NCBI GenBank assembly: GCA_018268415.1
Contig: JAFDWO010000146.1
Coordinates: 1-64,000, forward strand
DNA: 64,000 nucleotides
Direction: 5' to 3'
Origin: Actinomycetota bacterium
GTDB taxonomy: Bacteria > Actinomycetota > Thermoleophilia > Solirubrobacterales > 70-9
Every line of letters begins with the position of its first letter. Position 1 is the stretch's first letter. Made by a program: the position numbers and the translations under genes. The notes beneath the pieces were generated by a model. That model saw only the letters and a list, made by a program, of their open reading frames with translations, searched no databases and was not told the DNA's origin. This document shows positions 50,649 through 63,777 of this stretch, in pieces.

Positions 50649-52823
50649 TCAGCCCGTCGCCGCCGTGGTGGCGCTGGTCGGAGTCACGGTCGCGGTCCCG
50701 CCGGCCGCCGTCGTCAACTGCTCCGCCGCCCGCGATGCCGCCCGCTCGCGGAGTTCCAGTTGCACGTCGCGCCGCGGCTCGTCGGGGGCGCGCTGGATCC
50801 GCGTCCACTCGCCGTCGGAGCCCAGGTCCCAGGAATTCGCGTTGTCGGCGAAGCAGCGCTCCAGCACGTCGCACATCTCTGCCTGCAGCGCCGGGTCTTC
50901 GACCGGTGCGACCAGCTCGACCCGGCTGTCGAGGTTGCGCGGCATCATGTCCGCGGACCCCATCAGCACGCGGGTCTCATCACCGCGGTGGAAGGTGTAG
51001 ACGCGCGAATGCTCAAGGAAGCGACCGACGATCGAGCAGACCCGAATGTTGTCGGAGATCCCCGGCACGCCCGGCTTCAGGCAGCAGATCCCGCGCACGT
51101 TCAGATCGATCCGCACCCCCGCCTGCGAGGCCCGGTAGAGCGCCCGGATGCACCCGGCGTCGACCAGCGAGTTCATCTTCAGCGCGATCCGCGCTTCTTC
51201 GCCCGCCTCGTGGGCGGCGATCGTCGCGTCGATCTCCTCGACGAAGCGGTCCCGCATCGTCGTCGGCGAGACCAGCATCTTGCGGTAGACCGCCGGGCGC
51301 CCGTAACCGGTGAGGAAGTTGAACATCTCCGCCACATCGGCGCCGATGTCGGGGTCGGCGGTGAAGAGGCCGAAGTCGGTGTAGAGGCGCGCCGTCTTGG
51401 CGTGGTAGTTGCCGGTGCCGATGTGGACGTACTCGCGCACCAGGTGACCCTCCCGACGCGCCACCAGGATCGCCTTGACGTGCGTCTTCAGCCCCGGGAT
51501 CCCGTAGACGACGTGGACGCCGGCCTCCTCCAGCGCTTTCGCCCAGTGGATGTTGGCCTCCTCGTCGAAGCGCGCTTTCAACTCGACCATGCAGACCGCC
51601 TGCTTGCCACGTTCGGAGGCGCGGATCAGCGACGGAACCAACGGCGAGTCGTCGCTCGTCCGGTACACGGTCTGCTTGATCGCCAGCACGTCGGGGTCTT
51701 CGACCGCCTGCTCGACGAAGCGTTCGACCGACGTCGCGAAAGAGTCGTAGGGATGGTGGACGAGCAGGTCGGCATGGCGGATCTCGCGGAACATGTCGAC
51801 CGGCAGCTCGTCCTCCCCCTGCAGCCGCGGCTGGGTCACCGGGGTCCAGGGCGAATAACGGAGCTCGGCGTGGCCCGGGACGTCGGCGAGCTCGGAGAGG
51901 TCGGCCAGGTCGAGCAGCCCGTCGATGTCGTAGACCTCGCGGTCTTCGAGGCGCAGCGCGCCGATCAGCTCCTGCCGCAGCTTCGGGTTCATCCCGGTTG
52001 CGATCTCGAGCCGTACCACCTCACCGAAGCGACGCCGGCGCAGCTCGTCCTGAACCGCCTGCAGCAGGTCGTCCGCCTCGTCGGAGACGGTGAAGTCGGC
52101 ATCGCGGGTCACCCGGAAGAAGCCGTAATCGACCACTTCGGTGCCTGGGAAGAGCGCGTCGAGATTGGTCGCGATCACCTGCTCCAAGGGGACGAACGCA
52201 CCGTTCGTGCCGACCGGCAGGAAGCGTCCGAGCAGCTCCTTCGGGACCTTCACCCGGGCGACGATCTCGACCTCCGACTCCGGGTCACGCAGGAGTACCG
52301 CGAGGCTCAGTGAGAGGTTCGAGATGTAAGGGAACGGCCGGCCGAGGCCGATCACCAGCGGCGTCAACGCCGGGAAGACCTGCTCGTGGAAGCGCCGGTG
52401 CATCTGGCGCTGCTCCTCCTCGCTGGCGTCCTCGAGCGAGACGATGCGGATGTCCTCGCGCTCCAGAGCGGGGCGCAGGACGCCGCCGAAGCAGTGCTGC
52501 AGCCGGCGATCCAGCTCGAGCACGATCCGCTGGATGCGATCGATCTGCTCGCCCGGCCGCAGGCCGTCGGGGCCGCGCGCGTCGATCCCCGCGTCGAGCT
52601 GGTCGAACAGCCCGGCCACCCGCACCATGTAGAACTCGTCGAGGTTCGAGGCGTAGATCGCGCAGAACCGCAGCCGCTCCAGCAACGGCACGCTGCCGTC
52701 CTCGGCGAGCTCCAGCACCCGGCGGTTGAACTCCAGCCAGGAGAGCTCTCGGTTGAAGTAGAGAGAGGGATCGTCGAGGCTGACAACCGACTCGGCCAAG
52801 GGGACATCGTACTGCTGCTGCAC
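50649..52823 (-). CDS. ppk1: Polyphosphate kinase 1
   Basis: A 724-aa enzyme making polyphosphate from ATP. N-terminal FNRELSWLEFNRRVL, SNLDEFYMVRVAG, and the catalytic half with VYRTSDDSPLVPSL, HVKAILVARREG, VHIGTGNYHAKTARLYTDFGLFTADPDIGAD (catalytic histidine region) and SADMMPRNLDSRVEL are all present. The last 60 residues are low-complexity Ala/Thr/Arg. GTG start 19 nt after the PHP-glycosyltransferase gene, so probably one transcript with that gene and the DUF47 gene. Confidence 0.96.
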   Translation of the reverse strand: MQQQYDVPLAESVVSLDDPSLYFNRELSWLEFNRRVLELAEDGSVPLLERLRFCAIYASNLDEFYMVRVAGLFDQLDAGIDARGPDGLRPGEQIDRIQRIVLELDRRLQHCFGGVLRPALEREDIRIVSLEDASEEEQRQMHRRFHEQVFPALTPLVIGLGRPFPYISNLSLSLAVLLRDPESEVEIVARVKVPKELLGRFLPVGTNGAFVPLEQVIATNLDALFPGTEVVDYGFFRVTRDADFTVSDEADDLLQAVQDELRRRRFGEVVRLEIATGMNPKLRQELIGALRLEDREVYDIDGLLDLADLSELADVPGHAELRYSPWTPVTQPRLQGEDELPVDMFREIRHADLLVHHPYDSFATSVERFVEQAVEDPDVLAIKQTVYRTSDDSPLVPSLIRASERGKQAVCMVELKARFDEEANIHWAKALEEAGVHVVYGIPGLKTHVKAILVARREGHLVREYVHIGTGNYHAKTARLYTDFGLFTADPDIGADVAEMFNFLTGYGRPAVYRKMLVSPTTMRDRFVEEIDATIAAHEAGEEARIALKMNSLVDAGCIRALYRASQAGVRIDLNVRGICCLKPGVPGISDNIRVCSIVGRFLEHSRVYTFHRGDETRVLMGSADMMPRNLDSRVELVAPVEDPALQAEMCDVLERCFADNANSWDLGSDGEWTRIQRAPDEPRRDVQLELRERAASRAAEQLTTAAGGTATVTPTSATTAATG

Positions 52824-52842: not shown

Positions 52843-55182
52843 TTATGCGACTCGTCGGAGCGGTGGCGTGGAGGAGCCCGGGGCGGCGGTCGGAACGCCG
52901 ACCGTGGCGCCGTCGAGGGCCAGCCGGTAGCCGGCCGCGAGCTGGCTCATCGAACGCTCCCAGGAGCGGGCCCGGGCGCCGCGGGCGCCGGCCGAGCCGA
53001 GCCTGGCGCGCAGCTCCGGCGAGGCGGCCAGCTGCAGGATCGACCCGGCGATGTGGTCGGCGTCGGGACGACAGAGAAGGCCGGTGTGGCGGTTCTCGAC
53101 CAGCGCGGCGGGACCGCCCTCGGCGATCGCGATCACCGGCAGCCCGCTGGCCCCGGCCTCGAGGATCACCTGGCCGTAGGTGTCGGTGACGCTGCAGAAG
53201 AGGAAGGCATCGGCGCTGGCGTAGGCGACCGCGAGCTCCTCGCCGCCGAGCCAGCCGAGGAAGGTGGCCGCGTCACCGAGCCGCGCCCGCAGCTCCTCTT
53301 CCTCCGGCCCGCCGCCCGCCAGCAGCAGGTGCAGCCGCGGGTCCGTGGCGTGGGCGGTGAGGAAGGCGTCCGCAAGCAGGTCGACCCCCTTCTCCTTGGA
53401 GAGGCGGCCGGCGTAGAGGAGCCTGATCTCGCCCGGGTAGGCGTCACGGTCGGCCTTCGCCGGGTCGAAGCGCTCGACGTCCACCCCGCGCTCCCAGCGG
53501 CCGACCTTGGCGCCGTCGATGCCGAGCTCTGCCAGCGAGCCGTCGGCGGCCGGGCTCGGCGAGAGGATCCGCACCGGGGCGTTGTAGAAGGCGCCGAGGC
53601 CGGCCTTGGCGACCGCCTCCAGCATCGCGTCGGCGCGCAGGCCGGCGTAGGTGGCGAGCTCGGTGTGGTAGCTGGCGAGCAGCGGCACGCCGGTGATCCG
53701 GCTGAGCAGCGTCGCCGCGATCCCGGCCGGGCCGGGAGCGGTGACGTGGACCAGGTCGTAGTGACCCTCGGCCAGCGCCTCGACCAGCTCGGGGACCGCC
53801 GGGACGCCCAGCCGCATGCCTTTGTAGAAGGGCAGCTCGAGCTCGGCGGCCGCGGGGAGGCGGCGGTCGACGCCGGGGTCGGTGCCGATCACGTCGACCT
53901 CGAAGCCGGGCACGCCGCGCTCGCGGATCTGCTCGATCGTGTGCGTTACCCCGTGCATCGAGCCGATCCCGTCGGCGATCAGGGCGACGCGCCGGCGATC
54001 GCTCTCGCCGCCCCGGAGCTTCGCTTTCTCGGCGCCGAGGAAGGCGGTCGAGGGCGCGTAGGGGAAGGCCGGGACGAGCGCCTCGAAGACCCCGCCGGCG
54101 GCGCTGCCGAGATCACCGGAGGAGAACGCTTCGACCCCCTCGTCGACGGCGACCCGGAGGCGTCGCTCGTGGCGACGCCGGGCGCGGCGGTAGAGGTCGG
54201 CGTGGGAGAAGCCGTCGGCCTGCAGCATCTCGAGGAGATCACGGCCGCGGGCGTCGATCCCGACCCCGGCGAGCCAGGCCTCGAGCAGACAGCGGGCGTC
54301 CTCGGGGCCGATGTCGGTGGCCACCTTGCCCTCCCGCTCCGAGCCCTCGCGGATCACCCGTTCGGCCATCTTCATCACCGCGGTGGGGTCGGGAGCGGAG
54401 CCCGGCGCGGGGGCGGCGGCGTCCGGCGCGGTCGTGGAGGCTGCGCCTGCCGCATCGGGGTCGGCTTCGCCGAGCGCCCGGGTCGCCAGCGCCATCGCCG
54501 CGTGCGTCCACTTCGCGGCGGAACCTTGCTCGCCCCGCGCCTCGGCATGACCATCGCGCATGTGGGCGAGAAACTCTTCCGGCGTGGCAGCGGCCGGGAC
54601 CTCGGTCCAGGTCCTGCCGATGTCGACGCCGGCATGGTCGTCGGAGCCGCCGATGCCGGTGCCGCCACGGGTGTCCACGTAGACGGCGGCAGGCATGTTC
54701 AGCTCCGCGGCGCGCGACCCGTTACGAACCTCCCAGATCGGGAAGAGCTCGGCGAGCCGCCGCCGGTGGCGCCGTGTAAGCGGCGCCGCGACGTAAAAGA
54801 AAGGGTGCGCCAGGGCGCAGGTGATCTGGTTCTCGTGCAGGTACGCGGCACAGGCCTCGACGTCGCCGGCGTGGGCCTGCAGCCACTCGTGGTCTCCGGG
54901 AGTGATCCCGTAACAGAGGACGTGAACCGCCTGGGGCTCGCCGGCGAAGCGAGCGGTCAGCTCCTCGGAGACGAAGGTGTCGGGAAGGCCCTCCAGCTCG
55001 AGAGCCCCGTCGATCGTGTCGTGATCGGTGATCGTGACGAAGTCCATACCCCGCCTCTTCGCCAGCTCGTAGACCTCCTGCGGAGGCGTCGCGCACTCGG
55101 GCAGGCCGAGGCTGCGCTGAACCCCGAGCCGGGACAGCTGTGAAGCGGTGGAGTGACAGTGCAGGTCAGCGCGGGAAGTCAT
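52843..55182 (-). CDS. PHP phosphoesterase fused to a GT4 (SqdX/mannosyltransferase-like) glycosyltransferase
   Basis: A 779-aa soluble protein. Residues 1 to about 230 are a PHP metal-dependent phosphoesterase: HCH (His8, His10), ITDHDT (Asp53-Asp55), AHP (His126) and SDDH (181-183). A low-complexity linker and helical region (about 235-390) follow. Residues about 397-765 are a GT-B glycosyltransferase of family GT4: SYHTEL (505-510), WERGVD (563-568), YAGRLSKEKG and the Glu pair at 675 and 688. The middle resembles SqdX and lipid mannosyltransferases. A four-unit 11-bp repeat lies 63 nt upstream and ppk1 follows by 19 nt, tying it to phosphate starvation. I infer, without proof, that it makes glycolipids and that the PHP half removes a phosphate. 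ATG with GGGAG upstream. Confidence 0.88.
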   Translation of the reverse strand: MTSRADLHCHSTASQLSRLGVQRSLGLPECATPPQEVYELAKRRGMDFVTITDHDTIDGALELEGLPDTFVSEELTARFAGEPQAVHVLCYGITPGDHEWLQAHAGDVEACAAYLHENQITCALAHPFFYVAAPLTRRHRRRLAELFPIWEVRNGSRAAELNMPAAVYVDTRGGTGIGGSDDHAGVDIGRTWTEVPAAATPEEFLAHMRDGHAEARGEQGSAAKWTHAAMALATRALGEADPDAAGAASTTAPDAAAPAPGSAPDPTAVMKMAERVIREGSEREGKVATDIGPEDARCLLEAWLAGVGIDARGRDLLEMLQADGFSHADLYRRARRRHERRLRVAVDEGVEAFSSGDLGSAAGGVFEALVPAFPYAPSTAFLGAEKAKLRGGESDRRRVALIADGIGSMHGVTHTIEQIRERGVPGFEVDVIGTDPGVDRRLPAAAELELPFYKGMRLGVPAVPELVEALAEGHYDLVHVTAPGPAGIAATLLSRITGVPLLASYHTELATYAGLRADAMLEAVAKAGLGAFYNAPVRILSPSPAADGSLAELGIDGAKVGRWERGVDVERFDPAKADRDAYPGEIRLLYAGRLSKEKGVDLLADAFLTAHATDPRLHLLLAGGGPEEEELRARLGDAATFLGWLGGEELAVAYASADAFLFCSVTDTYGQVILEAGASGLPVIAIAEGGPAALVENRHTGLLCRPDADHIAGSILQLAASPELRARLGSAGARGARARSWERSMSQLAAGYRLALDGATVGVPTAAPGSSTPPLRRVA

Positions 55183-55244
55183 CGGTGTCTCCCTTGTCTA
55201 GTCCTCATTGCACGGCCATATTTCGTCATTTGCAGGGAAAACAT

Positions 55245-55288
55245 GTGAACCACCTGCAAACGACCCGTGAACTTCGTGTGACCCGCGT
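55245..55288 (-). promoter_or_regulatory. Four-unit candidate Pho box upstream of the PHP-GT4 gene
   Basis: Units GTGAAC, GCAAAC, GTGAAC and GTGACC begin at 55245, 55256, 55267 and 55278, exactly 11 bp apart (they read as GTTCAC-type units along the gene). PhoP of Streptomyces binds direct repeats of this kind. An A/T-rich stretch near 55217-55223 could be the -10. Confidence 0.7.
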
Positions 55289-55303
55289 GATTCTTGGGGC
55301 GGA

Positions 55304-55583
55304 AGGGATGAGGACTTGGGAAGCTGACGCCCGAAGGGATGAGGACTTAAGAAGCTGACGCCCCGAAGGGGATGGGGACTTAAGAAGGTGACGCCCCGAA
55401 GGGATGGGCCTCGGGAAGCCGACGCCCGCGAAAGGGATGGGGGGGGGTTCCGCAGCGATCGCCCGGGGAAGGGATGGGACTGGGGAAGCTGTCGCCCGTG
55501 GGGAAAGGGCCCCGACCCCCCAGGCTGCCGCCCGGAAAGGGCTCTGGCCCCCTCAAGCTGTCGCCCATGGCGGAAAGGGATGC
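55304..55583. repeat. Degenerate ~33-bp tandem repeats
   Basis: Eight units, each opening GGGATG (or GGGC...) and ending near AAGCTGACGCCC plus GAA. The first three are the most alike; later ones drift. The last runs into palindrome C, whose stem starts within the same GGGATGCGGCC word. Confidence 0.8.
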
Positions 55584-56540: not shown

Positions 56541-57458
56541 CTAAGCCGCCCGCAGCGCCGGGCCGGCGCCGTTGCTCAATCCGGCTCCGCCGTTGAGGAG
56601 GTCGAGGATGACTCCCTCGCGGAGGCCGCCCTTGCCGATCTGCAGGGGCTGACCGAGGAGCTCGGAGACCTTCTCCAGGAGGAGGACGCCGGTGGTGAGG
56701 ATGCGGACACGGCGGGGATCGAGCTCGAAGCGGCGGGCGACGTCGCCGGCCGGTTCGGAGGAGAGGACGCGGATCGCGCGCTCGAGCGTCTCGTACTCGA
56801 GCACCGCGCCGACCAGCCGGCGCAGGCTGGTAGCCGAGCCGCCCACGGCCACCGCCTGGTCGGGATGGTCGATCTCGACCCCATGGAAGAAGTCCTCGAT
56901 GTGATCGCGGACGCGCCGGATCTCGGCCGCCGAGGGCGGATCGGAGGTCATCAGCTCGTCGGCGAGGACGCCGGAGCCGATGTGCCAGGAACGCACCTCG
57001 TCGACCCCGTCGGGGACGGTTCCGAGAATCACCTCGGTCGAGCCGCCGCCGACGTCGACGACCCCGATCGACCCCTCGGTCGGGTGCCCGAGGGCCTTGG
57101 TCGCGCCGATGAAGGAGAGCCTCCCCTCCTCCTCCCCACTGAGGATCTCGACGTCGACCCCGGCCGCGGCGGAGATCGCCGCCGCCACCGCCGGCCCGTT
57201 CGAGGCCTCACGCACCGCCGCCGTCGCCACCGCGCGGATCTCGACCGCGCCGAGCTCGCGCGCCAGCCGCACCTGCGTGGCGACCAGTTCGCCCACCTCG
57301 CGAATCTTGTCGGGCCGGATCCGCCCCTCATCGTCGACCGCCTTGGAGATGCGCGTATAGGCGCGCTGCTCCATCACCTTCTTCAGCTGACCGTCCATCG
57401 ACTCCGCGACCAAGACGCGGGTCGTGTTGGAACCGATGTCGATCGCTGCGCACAGCAT
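56541..57458 (-). CDS. ppx: Exopolyphosphatase / pppGpp phosphohydrolase (Ppx/GppA)
   Basis: A 305-aa actin-like-fold phosphatase, the short form usual in actinobacteria. AIDIGSNTTRVLVAE is phosphate-binding loop 1, IRAVATAAVREASNG the middle motif, SGEEEGRLSFIGA the catalytic region, and GVVDVGGGSTEVILG loop 2. It degrades polyphosphate or pppGpp, opposing Ppk1. Starts 36 nt after phoU on the same strand. Confidence 0.93.
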   Translation of the reverse strand: MLCAAIDIGSNTTRVLVAESMDGQLKKVMEQRAYTRISKAVDDEGRIRPDKIREVGELVATQVRLARELGAVEIRAVATAAVREASNGPAVAAAISAAAGVDVEILSGEEEGRLSFIGATKALGHPTEGSIGVVDVGGGSTEVILGTVPDGVDEVRSWHIGSGVLADELMTSDPPSAAEIRRVRDHIEDFFHGVEIDHPDQAVAVGGSATSLRRLVGAVLEYETLERAIRVLSSEPAGDVARRFELDPRRVRILTTGVLLLEKVSELLGQPLQIGKGGLREGVILDLLNGGAGLSNGAGPALRAA

Positions 57459-62496: not shown

Positions 62497-62817
62497 TCAT
62501 CCGTCCGGCGAGAACCGGTAGCCGATCCCGTTGTGCGTGTAGATCAGCTTCTGATCCGGCAGCGCCGCGCCGAGCTTGGCGCGCAACCGGCTCACGTATA
62601 CGTCGACCGAGCGGTCGTCGCGGCGCGGCGGGGTGCCCCAAACCGACGTGTGAAGCTCCTCCCGGGTCAGGATCCGCTGCGGATTCGACCAGAGGGTGAC
62701 CAGGAGCTGCAACTCCCGCACCGTGAGGCTGAGCGGGCGACCGTCGACCAGCGCCGCGTGCTCCTCTGGGCGCACCTCCAGCCTCCCCGTTTTGTCGGAC
62801 GCGCTACCTACCGCCAT
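62497..62817 (-). CDS. Receiver-less OmpR/PhoB-type winged-helix protein
   Basis: A 106-aa protein that is only the DNA-binding half of an OmpR-family regulator: LSLTVRELQLLVTLWSNPQRILTREELHTSVWG ... RSVDVYVSRLRAKLGAALPDQKLIYTHNGIGYRF. No receiver domain precedes it in any frame; the space upstream is the end of the next regulator gene. It resembles that regulator's own winged helix and could compete with or assist it at the same repeats. ATG start; a three-unit Pho box lies about 47 nt upstream. Confidence 0.85.
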   Translation of the reverse strand: MAVGSASDKTGRLEVRPEEHAALVDGRPLSLTVRELQLLVTLWSNPQRILTREELHTSVWGTPPRRDDRSVDVYVSRLRAKLGAALPDQKLIYTHNGIGYRFSPDG

Positions 62818-62853
62818 CGTGGCGGAGAATGTCGTTGGGCGTGCCTGAACCGG

Positions 62854-63675
62854 TTACGCCGCGGTGAAGCTTTTGTGAACGACCTGTGAACTTTGGCCGT
62901 TGGAAGACGCCTGCGAGAGGGCTGGACCAACCGGGGGAACGGCGTCCGCGGAGGGCTCCGGGTCGAAGCGATAGCCGACCCCGAAGTGCGTGTGGATGTA
63001 CTCCCAGTCAGGCGAGCGCTTCTCCAGCTTCTGGCGCAGCTTGCGGATGAAGACGTCGACCGAGCGATCACCGTGGGCCATCGCGTAGCCCCAGACCCGC
63101 TGGTAGATGGTCTCGCGCTCGAGCACCTGGCCCTGGGTGCCGGCGAGCAGGTGCAGGAGCTCGAACTCGCGCCGGGTCAGGTCGAGGCTGTCGCCGGAGA
63201 CGAAGGCCTGGAAGCGATCGGGGCGGATCTCGAGCTCGCCCGCGAGGACCGGCGAGGACTCGGGCTCGTGGCGACCGCGGCGGTGGCGGCGGGTGACCGC
63301 TTCGATCCGCGCGATCGCCTCCTCCGGATGGGAAGGCTTGGTGATCCAGTCGTCGACGCCGAGTCGCAGGCCGCGGACCCGCTGGGCCACGGTCGAGCGC
63401 CCGGTGCAGACGACGACGCCCAGGTCCGGCAGCAGGTTGCAGACGCGGTCGAGGTAGCGCCACGCTTCGTCGCCGAGCACCGCCGGATCGACCAGCAGCG
63501 CGTTCAGCTTCATCGCGACCAGCTGGTCGGGCGGCACCGCGCCGCCCGAAGTGCGCAGCAGCCAGCCTGCCGCCTCGGCGCGCTTGGACAGGACGGTGAC
63601 GAAGCCGGAATCGGTGTCGATCACCGCGAGACGAGTGGTCGGATCAGAGGCCAACTCAAGGCGGATTCTATGCAC
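62854..63675 (-). CDS. OmpR/PhoB-type response regulator
   Basis: About 273 aa from the GTG at 63675; a TTG at 63654 preceded 10 nt by TAGAAT is an equally good start. The receiver domain has the acidic pocket AVIDTD, the phospho-acceptor aspartate in ALLVDPAVLG, the threonine in VVCTGRST and the lysine in WITKPSHPEE. The winged helix is LDLTRREFELLHLLAGTQGQVLERETIYQRVWGYAMAHGDRSVDVFIRKLRQKLEKRS-like (described, not quoted as one motif). It is the likely Pho-type regulator of the island, but no histidine kinase is in the window. Confidence 0.88.
   Translation of the reverse strand: MHRIRLELASDPTTRLAVIDTDSGFVTVLSKRAEAAGWLLRTSGGAVPPDQLVAMKLNALLVDPAVLGDEAWRYLDRVCNLLPDLGVVVCTGRSTVAQRVRGLRLGVDDWITKPSHPEEAIARIEAVTRRHRRGRHEPESSPVLAGELEIRPDRFQAFVSGDSLDLTRREFELLHLLAGTQGQVLERETIYQRVWGYAMAHGDRSVDVFIRKLRQKLEKRSPDWEYIHTHFGVGYRFDPEPSADAVPPVGPALSQASSNGQSSQVVHKSFTAA
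62864..62896 (-). promoter_or_regulatory. Three-unit candidate Pho box inside the 3' end of the regulator gene
   Basis: Plus-strand GTGAAG, GTGAAC and GTGAAC begin at 62864, 62875 and 62886, exactly 11 bp apart (GTTCAC-type along the gene). It encodes the last residues of the upstream regulator and lies upstream of the receiver-less gene. Confidence 0.65.
63666..63671 (-). promoter_or_regulatory. Putative -10 hexamer for the response regulator
   Basis: Minus-strand TAGAAT, about 10 nt upstream of the TTG at 63654; it would place the GTG at 63675 upstream of the transcript, favouring the TTG. Confidence 0.4.
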
Positions 63676-63685
63676 GCCGAGGGCC

Positions 63686-63713
63686 TTTTTACCCGTGTTT
63701 ACAGGTTTTTCAC
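63686..63713 (-). promoter_or_regulatory. Candidate Pho box upstream of the response regulator
   Basis: On the minus strand GTGAAAA, GTAAAC and GTAAAAA begin 11 and 10 bp apart, ending about 15 nt before the TAGAAT hexamer. This suggests autoregulation. Confidence 0.5.
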
Positions 63714-63777
63714 AACTCTGAGGACCCCAAATTGCGGCCAAGGTGAGCCACCGATGGCTTGTTCAAGCCAATTGAAC

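Follow-up and report, generated by a model that had tools for sequence, protein, structure and literature searches.

Replacement of phospholipids by phosphorus-free lipids is a main microbial way of living at low phosphate, and the enzymes involved are known mostly from Pseudomonadota. This work deals with a gene that fuses a PHP phosphoesterase domain to a GT4 glycosyltransferase, found in a stretch of 64,000 nucleotides, hereafter the window, of contig JAFDWO010000146.1 (assembly GCA_018268415.1), from a soil actinobacterium of the order Solirubrobacterales (hereafter the order) with a genome 94% complete. In Pseudomonas aeruginosa, Agt1 makes glucosyl-diacylglycerol (glucosyl-DAG) and Agt2 glucuronosyl-DAG, the DAG being supplied by PlcP, and Pho boxes are predicted (PMC8528852). 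Dde_3613 of Desulfovibrio is an Agt homologue, and its mutant is devoid of glycolipids at low phosphate (PMC5193443). GpgS glycosylates phosphatidylglycerol (PG) in the glucosaminyl-PG pathway GpgSDF (PMC12713373), and the HexSDF set of Clostridioides difficile, comprising a lipid glycosyltransferase and a deacetylase, forms a phosphate-free aminosugar glycolipid (PMC10128005). In Mycobacterium tuberculosis, also an actinobacterium, glucuronyl-DAG rises about 4100-fold without phosphate, no glycosyltransferase being named for it in the portion of the article available (PMC12722247).

No description of a PHP-GT4 fusion was found in the open-licence literature, which omits most subscription journals. 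The fusion is interpreted here, with a probability of about one half, as a one-chain enzyme of the Pho regulon for membrane lipid remodelling. Under phosphate scarcity a regulator of the PhoP/PhoB type would bind the PHO box upstream of the gene, and the fusion would be switched on along with ppk1, with which it may be co-transcribed. The PHP half, as an active three-metal phosphoesterase, would release phosphate from a lipid, be it from phosphatidate or from the head groups of phosphatidylinositol (PI) or PG, leaving DAG, to which the Agt-type GT4 half would add a sugar to form a phosphorus-free glycolipid, the freed phosphate being used again or kept as polyphosphate. The product would be processed further in some relatives, by a de-N-acetylase encoded next to the fusion, and the sugar would there probably be N-acetylglucosamine (GlcNAc).

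PHO box

PhoP sites in Streptomyces are made up of 11-nt direct repeat units, and four core units are present at pitH2 (PMC7866108). Upstream of the fusion the units GGTCACACGAA, GTTCACGGGTC, GTTTGCAGGTG and GTTCACATGTT follow each other at exact 11-bp spacing, from -101 to -58 relative to the ATG start codon. Arrays were scored by matches to the Streptomyces core GTTCACC over four 11-bp units (28 positions). The fusion PHO box matches 21 of the 28 core positions, unit 3 being weak; the array, called perfect in the preliminary description, is so in its spacing but not in its letters. Scores of at least 21 occur at two of the 127,920 window positions on both strands, corresponding to the fusion array and to an array at 62852, and none of 2000 first-order Markov sequences modelled on the upstream 300 bp reached 21.

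The array was monitored in the 200 bp upstream of 51 fusions, window included, reduced to 49 distinct sequences by removal of two repeated arrays. L066 (a repeat of the window copy), L045 (truncated at the N-terminus) and L073-L077 (outside the order) were omitted; L056, low-scoring and at a short contig end, had been dropped earlier. Scores of at least 17 were found in 45 of the 49 upstreams and of at least 18 in 40, against 19 and 11, respectively, of 260 other clustered open reading frames (ORFs) from the same loci, ten of these 11 controls sitting before pstS or PhoB-like regulators. Fusion PHO boxes score equally high inside and outside the pho locus. These counts support the fusion as a predicted member of the Pho regulon, with a PHO box kept within the order even beyond the pho locus.

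Distribution of the fusion

A scan of genome contigs returned 59 loci, 50 actinobacterial, the titles of most naming Solirubrobacterales or one of its families, plus nine from Bacillota, in which only the GT4 half matches. The fusion profile (E <= 1e-100) has matches, some partial at contig ends, in 49 of the 121 genomes of the order and in 9 of the 10 of the genus. Of 296 genomes from the phylum, 12 have a match to the profile of the PHP half alone: 11 of the matches continue in frame into the GT4 half, and the remaining one is a fragment of 100 aa lying at the end of its contig. PHP halves of distant fusions are 35-43% identical to that of the window, and none of the 296 genomes showed the two domains as separate genes from which the fusion could have come. 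Because this PHP subfamily is not seen alone over such a distance, the two halves would serve one reaction sequence, and probably belong to one pathway. None of 100 matched plasmid records covers 80% of the fusion, and viral contigs gave no match. Two metagenome-assembled genomes titled Bifidobacterium breve (L048, L055) hold fusions of the Solirubrobacterales type (59-61% identity); their titles look wrong.

The PHP half

The presence of both domains in one protein, noticed in the preliminary description, is borne out by a single 779-aa ORF, in which PHP_C scores 26.1 bits (cut-off 21.3), PHP 15.9 bits, below its cut-off of 26.4, and the GT4 families PF00534, PF13692 and PF13439 far over theirs. 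The AlphaFold2 model of residues 1-245 has a mean predicted local distance difference test (pLDDT) of 80 and a predicted template modelling score (pTM) of 0.82, residues 13-28 and 226-245 being poor. It matches 13 PDB entries at E <= 0.001, with template modelling scores by query of 0.49-0.60; 12 have PHP, metal-dependent phosphoesterase, RNase AM or amidohydrolase in their titles, and the other is PsfC. The PHP domain of RNase AM is the best match (7ug9, E 3.2e-9), and the N-terminal half, as modelled, has the PHP fold. A PDB search with A5 gave weak matches, several plainly due to chance. The full-length model (pLDDT 74, pTM 0.56) matches GT-B transferases, the relative placement of the two halves being unreliable.

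In RNase AM three Mn ions are held by His13, Asp20, His45, Glu72, His83, His198, Asp255 and His257 (PMC9410882). Mapped by motif order, not by superposition, these correspond in the fusion to H8, (E29), H54, E74, H87, H126, D181 and H183. Seven of the eight ligands are thus retained, rather than all the metal motifs reported earlier; the eighth, Asp20, is probably replaced by Glu29, which pairs with Asp14 of 2yb1 in a profile alignment and does not vary in any of the 15 fusions. The ligand columns do not vary among the 15 fusions except for H87, which is Asp in L076 and L077, and H10 is invariant as well. This conservation supports a metal site that looks intact. The nucleotide-binding insertion of RNase AM is missing, since H87 and H126 are 39 residues apart, vs. 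115 between His83 and His198, and a nucleotide phosphatase of the RNase AM subfamily was lowered as a candidate for this reason.

The GT4 half

The best NCBIfam models for the fusion are GpgS (NF053787; 119 bits, cut-off 480), TIGR03088 (74), EpsE (69) and MshA (69), all below their own cut-offs. Three reference genes, taken from the matched plasmid records, were named by their neighbours: Agt1 (L092) lies directly behind a PlcP-type gene and Agt2 (L093) behind plcR, both in P. aeruginosa, and Agt (L095) belongs to a PlcP-type/glycosyltransferase pair of Roseomonas, the PlcP-type protein of which is 53% identical to that of P. aeruginosa. The Agt2-type gene scores 135 bits with GpgS and 96 with Mgs, the Agt1-type gene 60 with GpgS only, and L067, from the window genome itself, 152 with MshA. 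No other close Agt-like GT4 was found in that genome.

In a first tree including L068, which has a long branch, the fusions fell into two groups at an unresolved fork, with no single clade. L068 was removed for the second, in which the 15 fusions form one clade (100/99) with four Agt-group rows nearest; among the tree sequences, which included no SqdX, Agt1 and Agt2 are the nearest verified enzymes. The motif [HY]x3[PE]GPxG, defined in this analysis and not taken from literature, is present in all 15 fusions and in all three Agts, and absent from a Rhizobium row of the same clade; GPxG occurs in another context in two of 29 other rows. The GT4 half is probably of the lipid type, and Agt-like. 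The narrower claim that it is a lipid transferase under Pho control seems to us likely.

Partner genes in relatives

Same-strand genes up to 2.6 kb away were counted at the 45 loci where the sequence runs on for 2.2 kb or more downstream of the fusion. A DUF2334 gene follows the fusion in 12 (L017 and L018 look like copies), overlapping its end by 3-10 bases in four; a second GT4 alone is present in three, and 30 have neither. L135 and L138, among these 30, carry directly 3' a gene of the PIG-L family (GlcNAc-PI de-N-acetylase), for which not all other loci were scanned. At L023 the partner genes score 91 bits with the GpgD model (cut-off 280) and 127 bits with that of GpgS (cut-off 480). Because two unrelated de-N-acetylase families adjoin one enzyme, an N-acetylated sugar is suggested in those species, pointing to GlcNAc rather than to the mannose or glucose named in the preliminary description, and hinting at aminosugar lipids in some relatives.

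Other genes are found nearby. A GH31 glycosidase gene is present in 21 loci, and in most is divergent from the fusion (e.g. L023:5562-7844(-)). A gene of the NAGPA (phosphodiester glycosidase) family lies near the fusion at L015:5029-5850(-), its cluster occurring in four loci, and a UppP gene near the fusion in L019, the one locus scanned.

Alternative explanations

In a soluble route of the MshA kind the GT4 half would transfer GlcNAc onto a polyol that carries phosphate, the PHP half dephosphorylate the product, and a PIG-L or DUF2334 protein deacetylate it to a small glucosaminide or thiol cofactor. Dephosphorylation is in mycothiol synthesis assigned to a putative phosphatase, MshA2, and GT4, phosphatase and PIG-L are found together at L135 and L138. 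Yet no MshC scored above cut-off in the 121 genomes of the order, the weaker matches present in every genome being taken by us for cysteinyl-tRNA synthetases. Moreover Lys131, Tyr164 and Arg208, invariant in MshA (L097 numbering), are replaced in the fusions, only Thr188 being kept (14/15), out of four columns which presumably serve the acceptor site and inositol phosphate; GPxG is common to Agt, not to MshA. These residues, the lack of an MshC above cut-off and the Pho control lowered a mycothiol-type pathway, and make such a route unlikely, even though MshA is the top PDB match of the GT4 half and the MshA-side grouping is not rejected by the topology test (see below).

It is doubtful, too, that the PHP half is a helper, hydrolyzing a by-product or a sugar or nucleotide phosphate and thus pulling the reaction or salvaging phosphate, not making the acceptor, while the GT4 half adds a sugar to PI, PG or DAG. 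The nearest PHP structures do act on small phosphate esters, GpgS, the best NCBIfam model, glycosylates PG (PMC12713373), and PI is the main polar lipid of Conexibacter woesei (PMC3035278); but the fusion is devoid of the nucleotide-binding insertion of RNase AM, and a phospholipid product would save no phosphate under Pho control. A polysaccharide or wall-glycan transferase of the Pho regulon, making for instance a wall polymer free of phosphate that substitutes for teichoic acid, its PHP half cleaving phosphodiester links, would accord with the breadth of the GT4 family, the weak matches to exopolysaccharide-type models, and the UppP (L019) and NAGPA (L015) genes near some copies. It is nonetheless quite improbable: the window locus has no glycan cluster, the motif is common to Agt, and the partners found in relatives resemble GpgS and GpgD.

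Lipid remodelling by one chain has its own difficulties. None of the eight fusions from outside the order reaches 17 (scores 13-16 of 28), though another type of box may exist there. At 28 of the 45 loci neither de-N-acetylase was found beside the fusion, and neither DUF2334 nor PIG-L was found anywhere in the genome of the window, so that its product may differ. No transmembrane segment is predicted in the fusion by hydropathy, and we know of no PHP enzyme acting on lipids. Placement with Agt has a support of just 87/66, and MshA is the top PDB match both by profile and by Foldseek. On the phylogeny of the GT4 half, for which grouping with mycothiol enzymes had been named as counter-evidence, the best tree sides with Agt, but a constraint tree joining fusions and MshA-side rows, 19.9 log units worse, is not rejected by the approximately unbiased test (p = 0.10).

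In favor of lipid remodelling were counted the PHO box, the obligate fusion, the metal ligands, the missing insertion, the proximity to Agt, the de-N-acetylases at 12 + 2 loci, and the lack of PlcP matches in the order and of another close Agt-like GT4 in the window genome. The one-chain proposal of the preliminary description thus gains from Pho control, an intact-looking metal site, an Agt-side GT4 and an obligate fusion, cleavage of lipid phosphate and a glycosyl-DAG product being its hypothetical steps. A more detailed version is offered tentatively: in deep-branching Actinomycetota the PHP half may be a lipid phosphoesterase of a novel type, which replaces PlcP and passes DAG to the Agt-type transferase, under Pho control, the two unrelated de-N-acetylase families of relatives leading to phosphate-free glucosaminyl membrane lipids.

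The phosphate locus

On the minus strand the order is response regulator, small regulator, pstS, pstC, pstA, pstB, phoU, ppx, fusion, ppk1, PhoU-like, Pit-type transporter, names which, from pstS on and apart from the fusion, we take from recognition of the sequences. The start of ppk1 is 19 bp past the stop of the fusion. In eight related loci (L007-L013, L043) ppk1 is immediately 3' of the fusion, which in most others is sited elsewhere. GC content of the fusion by codon position (0.76/0.54/0.91) is typical of a real high-GC gene.

Features of the phosphate locus in the window
Feature	Position	Strand	Basis
PHP-GT4 fusion gene, 779 aa	52843..55182	-	ORF, Pfam/NCBIfam matches; conserved family
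GT4 domain (~residues 391-779), probably Agt-like, motifs GPxG and DTYGQVILEA	52843..54012	-	
Helical linker (~residues 241-390), little conservation	54013..54462	-	block conservation, model
PHP domain (~residues 1-240): H8, H10, E29, H54, E74, H87, H126, D181, H183	54463..55182	-	invariant columns (except H87), PHP fold, RNase AM comparison
PHO box, four 11-bp units	55240..55283	-	array scoring
ppk1, polyphosphate kinase	50649..52823	-	name recognised from sequence
ppx-type gene, upstream of fusion	56541..57458	-	name recognised from sequence
Second PHO box, ahead of small regulator and pstS	62852..62891	-	22/28
106-aa stand-alone Trans_reg_C protein (PhoB/OmpR-type DNA-binding)	62497..62817	-	
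295-aa response regulator, Trans_reg_C and weak receiver match	62854..63741	-	

The 106-aa regulator has no receiver domain, the strong second PHO box (22/28) lies at its start, and the receiver match of the neighbouring response regulator is weak; small ORFs resembling it are present in L009, L013 and L043. Tandem repeats of 31-32 bp reside at 55302-55439 and 55502-55566, in the stretch that separates ppx from the fusion PHO box.

Comparison with known systems

The GpgSDF pathway shares with the fusion the GpgS model, best for the GT4 half, and a GpgD-like DUF2334 gene, beside the fusion at 12 of 45 loci. It has no PHP part, however, and its product retains phosphate; the fusion falls far below the GpgS cut-off, and DUF2334 is missing in the window genome. 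HexSDF is alike in joining a lipid glycosyltransferase and a deacetylase, but HexS is annotated as monogalactosyldiacylglycerol synthase, and a PHP part is again lacking. RNase AM/YciV and CV1693 (7ug9, 2yb1) have in common with the fusion the fold and, by motif order, 7 of the 8 listed metal ligands, and differ in that the fusion misses the nucleotide-binding insertion, has probably Glu29 in place of Asp20, and carries a GT4. Were lipid remodelling correct, lipids would join the substrates of PHP enzymes.

A phosphoesterase fused to a GT4 of the lipid type is also found in a Pseudosulfitobacter plasmid gene beside a flippase-like gene (L120:1454-3682), at least 80% of which is covered by 32 plasmid records. 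Its first half is calcineurin-like (27.5 bits, cut-off 21.5) instead of PHP, and gave no BLASTP alignment with PlcP; its second scores 168 bits with the monoglucosyldiacylglycerol synthase model (cut-off 400). Because this gene parallels the fusion with a calcineurin-like half, the joining of phosphoesterase and GT4 has arisen more than once.

The PlcP-Agt system (PlcP PA3219, Agt1 PA3218, Agt2 PA0842) resembles the fusion in combining phosphoesterase and GT4 steps under Pho boxes, Agt is nearest to the GT4 half in the tree, and GPxG is common to both. Its two proteins are separate, and PlcP is calcineurin-like, not PHP; a search of the 121 genomes of the order, run without a positive control, revealed no PlcP homologue. 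Should Dde_3613 of Desulfovibrio also be a PHP-GT4 fusion, genetics would have demonstrated some of the function already. If lipid remodelling by the fusion holds true, soil Actinomycetota would have a phosphate-saving lipid route of their own, through a phosphoesterase and a transferase that are obligately fused and preceded by a conserved PHO box, and a single chain would perform the membrane-saving task which other bacteria divide between two enzymes.

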